Both the position numbers and the translations under genes were made by a program. 64,000 bases of DNA from Blastococcus capsensis (GTDB taxonomy: Bacteria > Actinomycetota > Actinomycetes > Mycobacteriales > Geodermatophilaceae). Under the pieces are notes generated by a model. That model was not told where the DNA came from. It was given only the letters and a program-made list of their open reading frames with translations, and made no database searches. Each line of letters opens with the position of its first letter. Position 1 is the first letter of the stretch. This document shows, one piece after another, positions 59,972 to 64,000 of this stretch. The stretch is taken from the NCBI RefSeq assembly GCF_030165005.1, contig NZ_JASNNW010000006.1, positions 124,001-188,000 of the forward strand, given 5' to 3'.

Positions 59972-62269
59972 TCACAGCTTGACGAGCGGGGCGTAGCGGA
60001 GGACGAGGCGCTTGGCGCCACCGGAGCCGAAGTCGACCGTGGCTTGGGCCTTGTCGCCCACGCCGGTCACCTCCACGACCGTGCCCAGCCCGAAGGCGTC
60101 GTGGCTGACCCGGTCGCCGACCTCCACCGAGATCACCTGGCGGTTGCCGGCTCCTCCCCGCAGACCGCCCGTCGCCAGCCCGGTCGCCGCCACCCGCGTC
60201 TGCGCCGAGCGGTAACCGGTCGACGGCGCCGGGGCCGGGTCGGTGCGGGCCCAGTGCACGGTCTCGCCCGGGAGCTCGTCGAGGAACCGCGACGGCGGGT
60301 TGTAGGCCGGCTGCCCCCAGCTGGTGCGCACCGTCGCCCGCGAGATGAGCAGCCGCTGCCGCGCCCGGGTGATCCCCACGTAGGCCAGCCGGCGCTCCTC
60401 CTCCAGCTCCCGCGGGTCGCCGAGTGCCCGCAGGTGCGGGAACACGCCGTCCTCCATCCCGGTCAGGAACACGACCGGGAACTCCAGCCCCTTCGCGGTG
60501 TGCAGGGTCATGAGCGTGACCACCCCCGCGTCGTCGCCGGAGACGGGGATCTGGTCGGCGTCGGCCACCAGCGAGACCTGCTCGAGGAAGTCGGTGACCG
60601 ACCCGCCCGGGTTGGCCGCCTCGAACTCCGCGGCCACCGAGATCAGCTCGTTGAGGTTGTCTACCCGCCCCTCGTCCTGCGGATCGGAACTGGCCTGCAG
60701 CTCGGCCAGGTAACCGGTGCGGTCGAGGATGCTCTCCAGGAGCGCGGCCGGGCCCGAGCCGGTCTCCACCAGCTGCTCGAACTCCTCGAGCATCGCGACG
60801 AACTCCTGCAGCGCCTTCAGCGAGCGGGTCGCGAGCTCACCGATCTCGGTGCACCGCCGCAGCGCGGTCCCGAACGCGATCCGCTCGCGGTCGGCGAACC
60901 TCTCGATGCAGGACTCGGCCTTGTCACCGATGCCGCGCTTGGGCACGTTGATGATGCGGCGCAGGCTGACCACGTCGGCCGGGTTGGCCACCAGCTTCAG
61001 GTAGGCCAGCGCGTCGCGGACCTCCTTGCGCTCGTAGAAACGGACACCGCCGACGACCTTGTACGGCATGCCGACGCGGATGAAGACCTCTTCGAACACG
61101 CGGGAGGCATTGTTCGTGCGGTAGAAGACCGCGATGTCGGCAGGCCTGGCCGTGCCCTCGTCGACCAGGGCGTCGATCTGCTCGGCGACCCAGGCGGCCT
61201 CGTCGTGCTCGTTGTCGGCGACGTAGCCCTCGATCAGCTCGCCGTCGCCCGAGTCGGTCCACAGGCTCTTCGGGCGGCGGCCGGTGTTCTTCGAGATGAC
61301 CTGGTTCGCGGCCTTGAGGATCCGCTGGGTGGAGCGGTAGTTCTGCTCCAGCAGGATCGTGGTGGCCTGCGGGTAGTCGCGCTCGAACTCGTCGATGTTG
61401 CGGATCGTCGCGCCGCGGAAGGCGTAGATCGACTGGTCGGCGTCACCGACGACGCACAGCTCGGCCTGCGGCACCGGGTCCCCGCCGGTGCCCGTGAGTT
61501 CCCGCACCAGCATGTACTGGGCGTGGTTGGTGTCCTGGTACTCGTCGACGAGGACGTGGCGGAACCGGCGCCGGTAGTGCTCCGCGACGTCGGGGAACGC
61601 CTGCAGCAGGTGGACCGTCGTCATGATCAGGTCGTCGAAGTCCATGGCGTGCGCCTCGCGCAGCCGCCGCTGGTAGAGCGTGTACGCGTCCTTGAGCACC
61701 CGCTCCGGCGGGGTCTGCGGGGTGAACGCGTCCTCGTCGACCAGCTCGTTCTTCAGGTTCGACACCTGGTTGGCGAGGCTGCGCCCCGGGAAGCGCTTGG
61801 CGTCCAGGTCGAGGTCGCGGGCGACCATCGTCATCAGCCGGATCGAGTCGCCCTGGTCGTAGATGGTGAACAACGACTTCATACCCAGCTTGGCGGCCTC
61901 GGCCCGCAGGATGCGCACGCACATCGAGTGGAACGTCGACACCCACATCGACCGCGCACGCGGCCCGACGAGAGCCGCCACCCGCTCCTTCATCTCACCG
62001 GCGGCCTTGTTGGTGAAGGTGATCGCCAGGATCTCGCCCGGTTGCACGCCGCGGGCACCCAGCAGGTAGGCGATCCGGTGCGTCAGCACCCGGGTCTTGC
62101 CCGACCCGGCACCCGCGACGATGAGCAGCGGGCTGCCCTCGTGGACGACGGCGTCCCGCTGGGGGCCGTTGAGGCCGGCGAGCATCCGGTCCAGCTCCCG
62201 CCCCAGCGAGCCCGGTGCGGAGCGCTGCAGGGCGGCGGTGCCGGGGAGGGACTGCTGGAGGCTGCTCAT
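59972..62269 (-). CDS. pcrA: ATP-dependent DNA helicase PcrA/UvrD
   Basis: 765 aa from ATG 62269 (MSSLQQ, the usual actinobacterial PcrA-type beginning; ATG 62329 with GGAG upstream would add 20 residues). SF1A motifs: Q motif LNGPQRDAV, motif I AGAGSGKTR, Ia FTNKAAGEMKERV, II VDEYQDTN, III GDADQSIYAFRGA, IV LEQNYRST, V TLHTAKGLEFPVVFL, VI VGITRARQRL. The C-terminal 70 residues form the Tudor-like RNAP-binding region (VSHDAFGLGTVVEV). Works in nucleotide excision repair and replication-fork processing. Divergent from the chorismate mutase leader. Confidence 0.96.
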   Translation of the reverse strand: MSSLQQSLPGTAALQRSAPGSLGRELDRMLAGLNGPQRDAVVHEGSPLLIVAGAGSGKTRVLTHRIAYLLGARGVQPGEILAITFTNKAAGEMKERVAALVGPRARSMWVSTFHSMCVRILRAEAAKLGMKSLFTIYDQGDSIRLMTMVARDLDLDAKRFPGRSLANQVSNLKNELVDEDAFTPQTPPERVLKDAYTLYQRRLREAHAMDFDDLIMTTVHLLQAFPDVAEHYRRRFRHVLVDEYQDTNHAQYMLVRELTGTGGDPVPQAELCVVGDADQSIYAFRGATIRNIDEFERDYPQATTILLEQNYRSTQRILKAANQVISKNTGRRPKSLWTDSGDGELIEGYVADNEHDEAAWVAEQIDALVDEGTARPADIAVFYRTNNASRVFEEVFIRVGMPYKVVGGVRFYERKEVRDALAYLKLVANPADVVSLRRIINVPKRGIGDKAESCIERFADRERIAFGTALRRCTEIGELATRSLKALQEFVAMLEEFEQLVETGSGPAALLESILDRTGYLAELQASSDPQDEGRVDNLNELISVAAEFEAANPGGSVTDFLEQVSLVADADQIPVSGDDAGVVTLMTLHTAKGLEFPVVFLTGMEDGVFPHLRALGDPRELEEERRLAYVGITRARQRLLISRATVRTSWGQPAYNPPSRFLDELPGETVHWARTDPAPAPSTGYRSAQTRVAATGLATGGLRGGAGNRQVISVEVGDRVSHDAFGLGTVVEVTGVGDKAQATVDFGSGGAKRLVLRYAPLVKL

Positions 62270-62533
62270 GCCGCGGCCCCCCGCGGAAACGTGGAGCGCC
62301 AGCGGAGCGTTCTCGTGGGGTCGGTTCATGGACGCAGCTCCGCGACGCAGCTCCGCTGGGGATCAGGACACCTACGGCGCACTCCCGCTGGGGAACCGGA
62401 AGTCTGCGACGCCTTCACCCCGCCACTGTAAGCCGGGCGGGTGACGGTCCCGGCGGCCGCTGGACCGCTCGCACCACCTGCCTCACCGGTGCGGCCGTGG
62501 CGTCGGCGTCCGGCCGTGTGCCACACTCGTCCC

Positions 62534-62596
62534 GTGCTCGCCACGGTCAGCTTTTTCTACGGTCACCGGGATCCGGTGTCCGTCACCGCTGGCTGA
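62534..62596 (+). CDS. Probable leader peptide with Phe-Phe-Tyr codons (attenuator of chorismate mutase)
   Basis: GTG 62534 to TGA 62594-62596 encodes 20 residues, MLATVSFFYGHRDPVSVTAG. TTT TTC TAC at 62552-62560 makes a three-codon aromatic run. CACACT ends six bases before the GTG, so the transcript could be leaderless. Downstream are a stem overlapping the Tyr codon and an intrinsic terminator, then the chorismate mutase gene, whose product leads to Phe and Tyr. This is the layout of a ribosome-mediated attenuator. Expression not shown; inference from layout. Confidence 0.7.
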   Translation: MLATVSFFYGHRDPVSVTAG

Positions 62597-62646
62597 GCAC
62601 ACGCCGCAACAGACGCCCCGGGCCCGAGGAGCCCGGGGCGTTTCTC
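62559..62646 (+). promoter_or_regulatory. Putative Phe/Tyr attenuator: alternative stems and terminator
   Basis: Strand 1 ACGGTCACCGG (62559-62569) pairs with strand 2 CCGGTGTCCGT (62573-62583), one mismatch. Terminator stem CGCCCCGGGC (62614-62623) with GCCCGGGGCG (62631-62640), followed by TTTCTCGTTCT. Strand 2 can instead pair with the terminator's left side (CCGG 62573-62576 with CCGG 62618-62621; CGTC 62581-62584 with GACG 62612-62615), giving an antiterminator when a ribosome stalls on FFY. Confidence 0.65.
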
Positions 62647-62686
62647 GTTCTCGGGGCCCGGGTCCACGACCTCCCGAGGACCACCG

Positions 62687-62980
62687 ATGAGCACCCTCAC
62701 CACCTCCCCCGCCGCCGGCCCCACCGCCCCCGAGGACCCGGTCGAGCGGATCGGCGAGCTGCGCGGCGCGATCGACGCCTGCGACGCCGAGATCATCGAG
62801 CTGGTGCGCCGCCGCCTGGAGATCTCCCAGGAGATCGGCGCGCTGCGCTCGGCCTCCGGCGGCACCCGCCTCTCCCTCGCCCGCGAGCAGCAGGTGCTGT
62901 CCCGCTTCCGGGCCGAGCTGGGACCGGACGGCGCGGCACTGGGGATGATGCTGCTCCGACAGGGCCGCGGCCGGCTCTGA
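62687..62980 (+). CDS. Chorismate mutase, AroQ-delta type
   Basis: 97 aa all-helical AroQ fold. Converts chorismate to prephenate, the branch to Phe and Tyr. Helix 1 IGELRGAIDACDAEIIELVRRR (Arg and Asp/Glu active-site positions), then EISQEIG and SLAREQQVLSRF, and the C-terminus MMLLRQGRGRL, which resembles the short actinobacterial enzyme (mycobacterial Rv0948c) activated by complex formation with DAHP synthase. ATG 62687 has GAGG upstream. Expression is probably set by the upstream attenuator. Confidence 0.92.
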   Translation: MSTLTTSPAAGPTAPEDPVERIGELRGAIDACDAEIIELVRRRLEISQEIGALRSASGGTRLSLAREQQVLSRFRAELGPDGAALGMMLLRQGRGRL

Positions 62981-62984
62981 GAGA

Positions 62985-63040
62985 GGACCTCGCTGCCCCC
63001 CACCGCTCGCGAGCTCGCGGCGGGACCCTGCAGCGAGGCC
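62985..63040. terminator. C-family intergenic hairpin, copy 9
   Basis: Arms GGACCTCGCTGC (62985-62996) and GCAGCGAGGCC (63030-63040); apical CTCGCGAGCTCG. In the convergent gap between chorismate mutase and the small protein gene. Confidence 0.75.
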
Positions 63041-63334
63041 TTACGGGCCGCTGCGCCAGACCTGGGAGTCGTCGTCGCCCATCGCGGCCACCTCGAACAC
63101 CCGGCCCGGGCAGGCCTCGTCGGCCTCGTCCGCCAGGTCCTTGCCGAGATCCAGCGCCGCATCGAGGTCGGCCGCCTCGCACTCGGTCACCACGCGCAGC
63201 ACCGCCCGGTCCGGCTCGCGCCAGAGCCGCAGCTCCGGGTCGTCGGGCCGGAGCACGGTGCGGAGGGCGTCGATCGCGGCGTCGTCCAGCGGCGCGGAGG
63301 AGCGCAACGCGACGGACAGGGTGAACGCAGGCAC
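63041..63334 (-). CDS. Small hypothetical protein
   Basis: 97 aa from GTG 63334 (a GTG at 63355 is possible). Not recognised. Alternating beta/alpha pattern (FTLSVALRSSAPLDDAAIDALR, LRLWREPDRAVLRVVTECEAADLDAALDLG) with acidic helices and no membrane segment; resembles small ferredoxin-fold hypothetical proteins of actinobacteria. CAGACT lies six bases before the chosen GTG, the same geometry as folD. Confidence 0.6.
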   Translation of the reverse strand: MPAFTLSVALRSSAPLDDAAIDALRTVLRPDDPELRLWREPDRAVLRVVTECEAADLDAALDLGKDLADEADEACPGRVFEVAAMGDDDSQVWRSGP

Positions 63335-63420
63335 GTCCCGAGTCTGCGCGATCACCGTCGTGCCGCCGCTCCCGCCCCCGGTGTTCCCTCACGACCCCGA
63401 CGGGTTCGCCGGGCCCTCCG

Positions 63421-63426
63421 TAGGCT
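63421..63426 (+). promoter_or_regulatory. -10 box for leaderless PIG-L gene
   Basis: TAGGCT seven bases before GTG 63434. Confidence 0.6.
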
Positions 63427-63433
63427 CCGCCGG

Positions 63434-64000
63434 GTGAGTTCCCCGTTCCAGCCCCCGTCCGGTCCCGCCGCGCACGTCGAGCGCGTGCTGTGCGTCCTGG
63501 CCCACCCCGACGACGTCGACTTCGGCAGCGCGGGGACCGTCGCCACGTGGACCGCGGCGGGCACCGAGGTCACCTACCTGATCGTCACCGACGGCGACGC
63601 CGGCGGATTCGACGACACCCCCCGCGAGCAGATGGGGCCGCTGCGGCAGGCCGAGCAACGGGCGGCCGCCGCCGCGGTCGGGGTGACCGACGTGCGGTTC
63701 CTCGGCTACCCCGACGGCCGGCTCGAGCTCACCCTGGACCTGCGCCGCGACATCAGCCGGGTGATCCGGCAGGTGCGCCCGCAGCGGGTGCTCACCAGCT
63801 CGCCCGAGCGGTTCTGGGACCGGATCGGCGCCAGCCATCCCGACCACATGACCGTCGGCGAGTCGACCCTGCGGGCGGTCTACCCCGACGCCCGCAACCC
63901 GTTCGCCTTCCCCGAGCTGCTGGCCGACGAGGGGCTGGAGGCCTGGACCGTCGCGGAGGTGTGGCTGGGCGCCAGCCCGCGCCCCGACCACGCCGTCGAC
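63434..64000 (+). CDS. PIG-L (LmbE-like) deacetylase, cut by window edge
   Basis: 189 codons visible from GTG 63434 to the right edge, no stop. Zinc motif AHPDD (about 23-27) followed by DFGSAGT, DGDAGG, RFLGYPDGRL and SHPDHMTVG, the signature set of PIG-L deacetylases. The family includes the mycothiol enzymes MshB and Mca as well as N-acetylglucosaminyl deacetylases and lipid-linked forms; the visible part does not decide. It stands alone behind a leaderless promoter. Confidence 0.88.
   Translation, partial: MSSPFQPPSGPAAHVERVLCVLAHPDDVDFGSAGTVATWTAAGTEVTYLIVTDGDAGGFDDTPREQMGPLRQAEQRAAAAAVGVTDVRFLGYPDGRLELTLDLRRDISRVIRQVRPQRVLTSSPERFWDRIGASHPDHMTVGESTLRAVYPDARNPFAFPELLADEGLEAWTVAEVWLGASPRPDHAVD

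Follow-up and report, generated by a model that had tools for sequence, protein, structure and literature searches.

The question raised by this locus is how the gene of a chorismate mutase (CM) is regulated in the soil actinobacterium Blastococcus capsensis, and whether the short stretch in front of it works as a switch operated by the ribosome. The window, i.e. the whole analysed stretch of 64,000 nucleotides, includes a CM gene of 97 aa on the + strand (62687–62980), with a Shine-Dalgarno-like GAGGA read from the sequence at 62676–62680. An earlier note, made from the letters of the sequence, had placed a Phe/Tyr leader-peptide attenuator before this gene, and its coordinates were correct. 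The most probable answer, at a rough probability of 0.88, is indeed a classical ribosome-mediated transcription attenuator that couples CM expression to the supply of phenylalanine and tyrosine. This reading is based on features computed here: the leader and its codons, the two stems, the conservation and covariation of these parts, and the linkage to CM.

The predicted regulated gene was assigned by NCBIfam and Pfam (CM_2). It scored 99.8 bits with NCBIfam model NF005894 (cut-off 73) and 78.3 bits with the high-GC model TIGR01808 (cut-off 52.15), presumably the model of the AroQ-delta type named in the earlier note. Chorismate mutase starts phenylalanine and tyrosine synthesis, and by this assignment the regulated gene makes the same amino acids that would be sensed. 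The divergent pcrA helicase gene lies upstream on the − strand at 59972–62270 (TIGR01073, 985.8 bits), its start at 62270 being placed from the sequence and the ORF being listed from 62329. The + strand leader unit is 264 nt from this start, and as pcrA reads away, the terminator described below does not serve it. After CM, a 104-aa ORF on the − strand (63041–63355) was without Pfam or NCBIfam match at E 0.001.

The leader ORF, a GTG-started frame of 20 codons that had been recognised earlier, is present on the + strand at 62534–62596, encodes the peptide VLATVSFFYGHRDPVSVTAG, ends at the TGA stop codon 62594–62596 and is kept in relatives. Its control codons Phe-Phe-Tyr, supported by a residue-blind test and by codon usage, are at 62552–62560. 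An extended −10 promoter element, TGC-CACACT (62519–62527, + strand), is located 6 nt ahead of the start codon. At a spacing of 5–8 nt, such an extended −10 was found at 94 of 111 distinct leader starts, compared to 6 of 4440 ATG/GTG picked at random from these loci. A C/T-A-N3-T hexamer was present in 105 of the 111, each with one at 6 or 7 nt, and at 160 of the 4440 random ATG/GTG of the same loci (5–8 nt), the former count being inflated because a start with a −10-like hexamer was preferred among several possible starts when the leaders were picked. Judged from the promoter spacing, transcription probably starts at or beside the leader GTG, and the leader would then be translated from a leaderless mRNA. 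The pheL of Escherichia coli has a normal 5' UTR. Leaderless leader peptides are recorded in Streptomyces (PMC8079986), and the title of a paper on the Corynebacterium glutamicum ilvBNC operon, cited in PMC4046766, mentions leader peptide formation without a ribosome binding site. The actinobacterial ilv, leu and trp leaders resemble the CM leader in their ORF at or near the mRNA 5' end, control codons and hairpins, as far as these sources describe them, but serve other amino acids.

The strand 1:2 stem-loop (62559–62583, + strand; left arm 62559–62569, right arm 62573–62583) begins inside the Tyr codon and includes ten pairs, one 1x1 mismatch and a 3-nt loop. Folding returned it at −15.9 kcal/mol, just as it had been drawn from the letters, and the RNA 62520–62690 folded at z −4.2 relative to dinucleotide shuffles, with 0 of 200 shuffles as good. 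Among 68 distinct hairpin sequences 94.0% of the cells were paired, compared to 89.9% in shuffles, and two-sided changes numbered 23 compared to 5.8, five pairs having changed on both sides; these shuffle controls, like those for the terminator, ignore relatedness. The Gly codon contributes its third base to a pair with the first base of the codon six positions further along; this pair occurs as GC, CG, GU, AU, UA or UG and is open in 10 sequences, the mismatch of the window included.

The intrinsic terminator (strand 3:4; 62611–62643, + strand) is a 13-bp stem of −27.8 kcal/mol. The 10-bp stem of the earlier note forms its GC core (62614–62623/62631–62640), to which flanking pairs are added. 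The stem is followed by CTCGTTCTCG, and the T-run is therefore short; the T-rich end that had been noted thus holds as a T-rich tract, TTTCTCGTTCTC at 62641–62652 after the core (+ strand), and not as a long run of Ts, and short T-runs are present also in relatives. In an alignment of 49 sequences, four terminator pairs had changed on both sides, one of them from C-G to A-U in 11 sequences. A crude rule picked out a hairpin with Ts between leader and gene for 120 of 125 leaders, and one of −15 kcal/mol or lower for 106 of the 125, some of the weak picks probably being the wrong hairpin. When the structures were slid along the alignments of stem 1:2 and terminator, pairing dropped to 29–53%. 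The covariation picture of both stems was alike when 29 sequences of other families were analyzed alone. Terminator and stem were thus both conserved and covarying; for the stem, covariation in related genera had been proposed as a check.

The GC content is 70–77% in the sampled windows and hairpins are therefore common, so that stems and an FFY ORF might have come together by accident in a GC-rich intergenic region. The probability of this is close to nil, and a chance origin is already refuted by conservation: in addition to the covariation, covariance model R2, built of 29 sequences that, judged by their names and identifiers, come from other families, matched the window at 62552–62650 with 68.1 bits and an E-value of 3.2e-20 in the 64-kb window and 2.2e-18 in the genome, the E-values of this and the following model being rough after quick calibration. 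No other convincing site for R2 was detected in the genome, where the remaining matches up to E 1 were those to the opposite strand of both stems and a single site with E 0.97. Model R1, built of 49 sequences with the family of the window included, had a match at E ≤ 0.01 in 129 of 150 genomes of the order, and the 30 best loci all hold CM. The count of 129 overstates the CM linkage, as in at least six genomes the best match was elsewhere (G291, G334, G474, G514, G531 and G544), either at a gene of class I DAHP synthase or at a hairpin of no relation. Weak R1 matches in the own genome (C13, C14) were rejected as further copies, being hairpins without an aromatic leader, and the weak matches L342 and L343 were likewise set aside as unrelated hairpins. 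None of the Rfam leader families fitted the element; the search of 61500–64000 gave one sub-threshold match elsewhere on the − strand (E 3.8). A covariance model is now available for finding the CM leader element.

CM was present in all 60 relatives searched, spanning 16 families of the order. The earlier note had named a lack of conserved aromatic codons or terminator in relatives as the observation that would speak against it; both were kept, the codons with the strict leader core [F/Y][F/Y/L/S/P/A][Y/F]G in 52 of the 58 order-level CM loci with upstream sequence and a looser aromatic short ORF in five (L040, L046, L047, L055 and L060). An aromatic leader was absent in one of the 58 scored loci, L045. 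Two of the 60 genomes are outside this count, L010 because of a contig edge and L059 because the script missed it; in the latter a looser leader, MTHQRRYFAETRDGSGS, was read by eye from a wider stretch. Two loci of one genus (L316 and L317, genomes G291 and G055) share the −10 box and have a short ORF ahead of CM, but this ORF has no aromatic cluster. L316 represents the second genome without an aromatic leader in the genus of L045, and the switch may have been lost or retuned in this genus. Three same-genus relatives (L006, L008 and L022) differ by a few inserted codons and by FAY at the position of FFY, leaving one Phe and one Tyr codon.

As the strict core selects aromatic residues, a residue-blind check was added. 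It accepted ORFs with an extended −10, a start codon 6–7 nt on and a length of 10–35 aa within 450 nt of CM, and 49 of the 58 loci have one. Of these 49, all except L045 (48 loci) have a pair of aromatics inside three codons; among length-matched control ORFs from the same upstream regions, 215 of 931 (23%) do. The promoter rule was met by no ORF in the remaining nine loci (L037, L039, L042, L043, L044, L046, L047, L052 and L055).

A gene-blind scan with the DNA motif TTYTWYGGNYACCGNNNNCCGGTNNCNGT over a contig collection of 84,980 species found 78 loci. CM was located within about 800 nt downstream in 70; five stretches end too early to tell (L080, L100, L104, L111 and L135), and three matches were unrelated and non-actinobacterial (Hymenobacter L089, Paenibacillus L099 and planctomycete L128), so that 70 of the 73 scorable matches were at CM. 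The genera included Blastococcus, Modestobacter, Pseudonocardia, Actinomycetospora, Allokutzneria and Rhodococcus, and also Mycobacterium, Mycolicibacterium, Mycobacteroides, Nakamurella and Jatrophihabitans. Since the stem and two control codons are part of the motif, it is silent on their variation, and as several loci come from the same genomes as the CM-locus set, the two sets overlap. In a phylum-wide sample of 396 genomes, with one mismatch allowed, the motif was present in eight, each of them belonging to this order. By these comparisons the conserved RNA/ORF unit tied to CM is real, and its anatomy, as deduced from the sequences, is that of a classical ribosome-mediated attenuator.

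The control codons were tabulated from 70 distinct hairpin sequences selected for the aromatic core. The first was TTT in 60, TTC in nine and TAT in one, the third TAC in 59, TAT in ten and TTC in one, and the middle codon encoded Phe in 54, Tyr in nine and other residues in seven; synonymous codons are both in use at the first and third positions. The 87 distinct leader peptides, selected likewise, included FFY in 67 and FYY in ten, and eight had a Trp two residues ahead of the triplet. The lack of Trp within the triplet was dropped as a finding from this set, since the selection core excluded Trp and its absence is by construction. Among the order-level CM leaders picked by a rule admitting Trp, none was seen by eye to have it in the triplet. 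Outside the order, Trp adjoins the triplet in L322 (QWFSYG).

The leader peptide is conserved also past the Phe/Tyr codons (core YG[YH]RxPVxV), as might be expected if the ORF worked through an arrest peptide, or through translation coupling that opens the CM ribosome-binding site, instead of codon-specific attenuation; furthermore, in some folds the CM Shine-Dalgarno sequence pairs with bases that follow the terminator. However, the residues after FFY are conserved because they encode both arms of the covarying stem 1:2, and the loop codon varies freely. For this reason, the peptide conservation was rejected as proof of an arrest peptide. Across 43 loci the predicted Shine-Dalgarno pairing was uneven, ranging from 0.20 to 0.81, and as no consistent structure was seen in them, the idea that the CM ribosome-binding site is sequestered was rejected. 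With, in addition, a hairpin followed by Ts between leader and gene in nearly all leaders by the crude rule, arrest or coupling is considered unlikely, and transcription attenuation remains the preferred reading.

The predicted antiterminator (62567–62626, + strand) would pair 62567–62584 with 62612–62626, including CCGG:CCGG and CGTC:GACG, and close a small inner hairpin. With a modelled ribosome on the Phe codons, its edge 12 nt downstream, the RNA 62567–62628 folded strand 2 onto strand 3 at −25.4 kcal/mol, compared to −27.8 kcal/mol of the terminator by itself. When strand 4 was included, the terminator won even with the stalled ribosome, and the complete RNA folded to the terminator in each modelled state; kinetics must therefore decide. 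As long as strand 4 is not yet transcribed, strands 2 and 3 are joined by at least five pairs in 76 of 78 distinct leaders with a strong terminator, but composition-shuffled strand 2 pairs nearly as well, only one of the 78 beating 95% of its shuffles (median percentile 0.26).

Correlated changes were seen at the Val codon that ends strand 2, as GTC tends to occur with GACG at the edge of strand 3 and GTG with CACG. CACG was present in 30 of 41 GTG rows and in 7 of 35 GTC rows (Fisher 4e-6, uncorrected for relatedness and with some rows shortened by the search pattern). Among the Pseudonocardia rows, 17 distinct ones from 20 named loci, CACG was present in 11 of 13 with GTG and in none of four with GTC. 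The two Pseudonocardia GTG exceptions (L084 and L138) have CACG just past the cut of the pattern, and three GTC rows (L074, L111 and L140) have GACG just past it. The pairing of strand 2 with the left arm of the terminator, proposed in the earlier note, is thus backed by the modelled fold and by the correlated GTC/GACG and GTG/CACG changes and is not set apart by pairing strength from the shuffles; the 2:3 antiterminator is the weakest part of the predicted switch. When the RNA was folded with no ribosome, the beginning of the leader ORF (GTGCTC..., 62534–62547) paired with its end (...GAGCAC, 62585–62600), which in this model could keep RNA with an untranslated leader in the terminating state.

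The folding of the full RNA to the terminator in each modelled state would also suit a constitutive short RNA, made from a strong promoter, containing a translated mini-ORF and ended by the terminator, with CM transcribed by leak-through and no response to amino acids, and the analysis is sequence-based throughout. This reading is very improbable considering the enrichment of aromatic codons in leaders picked blind to residues, the joint changes of the antiterminator partner bases and the gene-blind matches, of which all scorable ones are at CM apart from the three non-actinobacterial ones.

In the attenuator model, ample charged tRNA-Phe and tRNA-Tyr would let the ribosome reach the leader stop codon, where stem 1:2 would form or strand 2 be covered, leaving strand 3 free. 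Strand 3 would then enter the 3:4 terminator, and RNA polymerase would stop about 40 nt before the CM start codon. Under a shortage of Phe or Tyr, the ribosome would halt on Phe-Phe-Tyr and cover strand 1; the freed strand 2 would pair with strand 3, the terminator would be delayed or prevented, and CM would be transcribed. The transcription start, stalling, read-through and sign of regulation are the parts of this model that we infer. The overall attenuator interpretation of the earlier note is in this sense supported by conservation and covariation, and provides, for a large actinobacterial group that includes mycobacteria, rhodococci and Pseudonocardia, a specific and testable proposal of how the Phe/Tyr branch point is controlled in transcription.

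The nearest known systems are E. coli pheL–pheA and C. glutamicum aroR–aroF, the attenuator of the latter reportedly described by Neshat et al. in 2014. In E. coli, leader-peptide attenuation by charged tRNA-Phe acts on an enzyme with chorismate mutase activity (PMC11802643). A Phe attenuator on such an activity is thus already known, and pheL–pheA resembles the CM leader in combining a leader peptide with attenuation of chorismate mutase activity, but pheA is a CM/prephenate dehydratase fusion and pheL senses Phe. The C. glutamicum leader has Phe-Tyr-Phe, where stalling is reported to raise transcription under Phe limitation, and is not affected by Tyr supply (PMC11802643, PMC4046766). Like the CM leader, it is an actinobacterial aromatic-codon leader peptide before an aromatic-pathway gene, but its target is DAHP synthase, with which the common pathway begins. 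For the mycobacterial chorismate mutase, the same kind of enzyme, partner activation by DAHP synthase is described (PMC4281200, PMC7762937); this acts on the protein, whereas the CM attenuator would act on synthesis, and the published control of this enzyme encountered so far in the available text of the sources is at the protein level.

Structures for Trp, Cys and Leu (ilv, leu) genes and ileS T-boxes were reported for actinobacterial amino-acid genes by Seliverstov in 2005, with no conserved structures for other amino-acid pathways in the portion of the paper available (PMC1262725). The same source states that changing the presumed regulatory codons of Streptomyces coelicolor ilvB had no effect, and a convincing leader therefore need not act by codon stalling. 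The available text of other sources names the C. glutamicum trp, ilv, leu and aroF leaders (PMC4046766, PMC11802643), eight S. lividans leaders with none before chorismate mutase (PMC8079986), the trpL leader only (PMC12125101), and predicted attenuators for tyrA in a table (PMC1173090). The word 'chorismate' is absent from the main text, as available, of PMC13236596, PMC4128351, PMC2965389, PMC4833913 and PMC8079986. Ribosome profiling of Mycobacteroides abscessus yielded 126 new small ORFs (PMC4974804), among which, going by the part of that report available, the CM leader may be included. No published report of the CM leader element was recognised in a full-text literature search, subscription papers being mostly outside it, and the leader is provisionally regarded as a new element of a known attenuator type.

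Outside the order, a short ORF in which aromatics are clustered, preceded at 4–9 nt by a −10-like hexamer, was found in 18 of 22 CM loci, e.g. MLTHPTFLFTYGNRPTGCHGRAA (L327) and VTSAATRFFYGYRPPVAVAAV (L324), under a looser rule by which two adjacent aromatics suffice and L328 and L339 are doubtful. No leader was found under this rule in L337, L338, L340 and L341, of which L338 and L340 are short stretches where the position given by the script may be off. Model R2 matched 31 of 118 genomes of the class at E ≤ 0.001. By coordinates, at least 17 of the 31 are beside CM, six in the order and 11 outside, the latter including G082 on the opposite strand. Three R2 matches with E-values from 4e-8 to 1.4e-7 (G615:C3:404381-404480, G637:C63:46247-46353 and G586:C418:4641-4747) belong to one other family of the class (f103), and no CM match was found in those genomes.

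The weak R1 matches off CM led to leaders ahead of class I DAHP synthase in other families of the order. L184, L186, L187, L188, L189 and L193 are directly before a PF00793 match, and the others were assigned by similarity at the beginning of the protein. Of 30 class I loci, 22 had an aromatic leader with a −10-like box, as did four of 20 further loci by a slightly wider rule, a fifth (L310) being doubtful. The rule of the 22/30 set found an aromatic leader in 0 of 30 loci of class II DAHP synthase and 0 of 30 loci of prephenate dehydratase. The class I DAHP synthase of the own genome had no leader by the slightly wider rule. All 29 typed DAHP synthase leader peptides had Trp and Tyr in one six-residue window, and 27 also Phe; the L184 and L189 leaders are without the Trp cluster.

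The control codons are thus suggested to differ, being Phe/Tyr for the branch enzyme CM and Trp/Tyr/Phe for class I DAHP synthase. Class II DAHP synthase, for which no such leader was found in 30 loci, is presumably the protein that activates CM in the mycobacterial work. It is possible, although as a tentative idea only, that the CM leader is one half of a codon-coded logic of Phe/Tyr for CM, Trp/Tyr/Phe for class I and none for class II, where Phe/Tyr shortage would raise CM over its allosteric partner and shift the complex. If so, RNA attenuation and protein–protein feedback would act on one stoichiometry. The class I DAHP synthase leaders (L187:432-566, L193, L232–L252, L296 and others), of which MRFWYGYFRPPGADQVAERVPR and VQRYFWFTKPAPGGHGRVNLR are examples, have their −10-like box 4–9 nt upstream.
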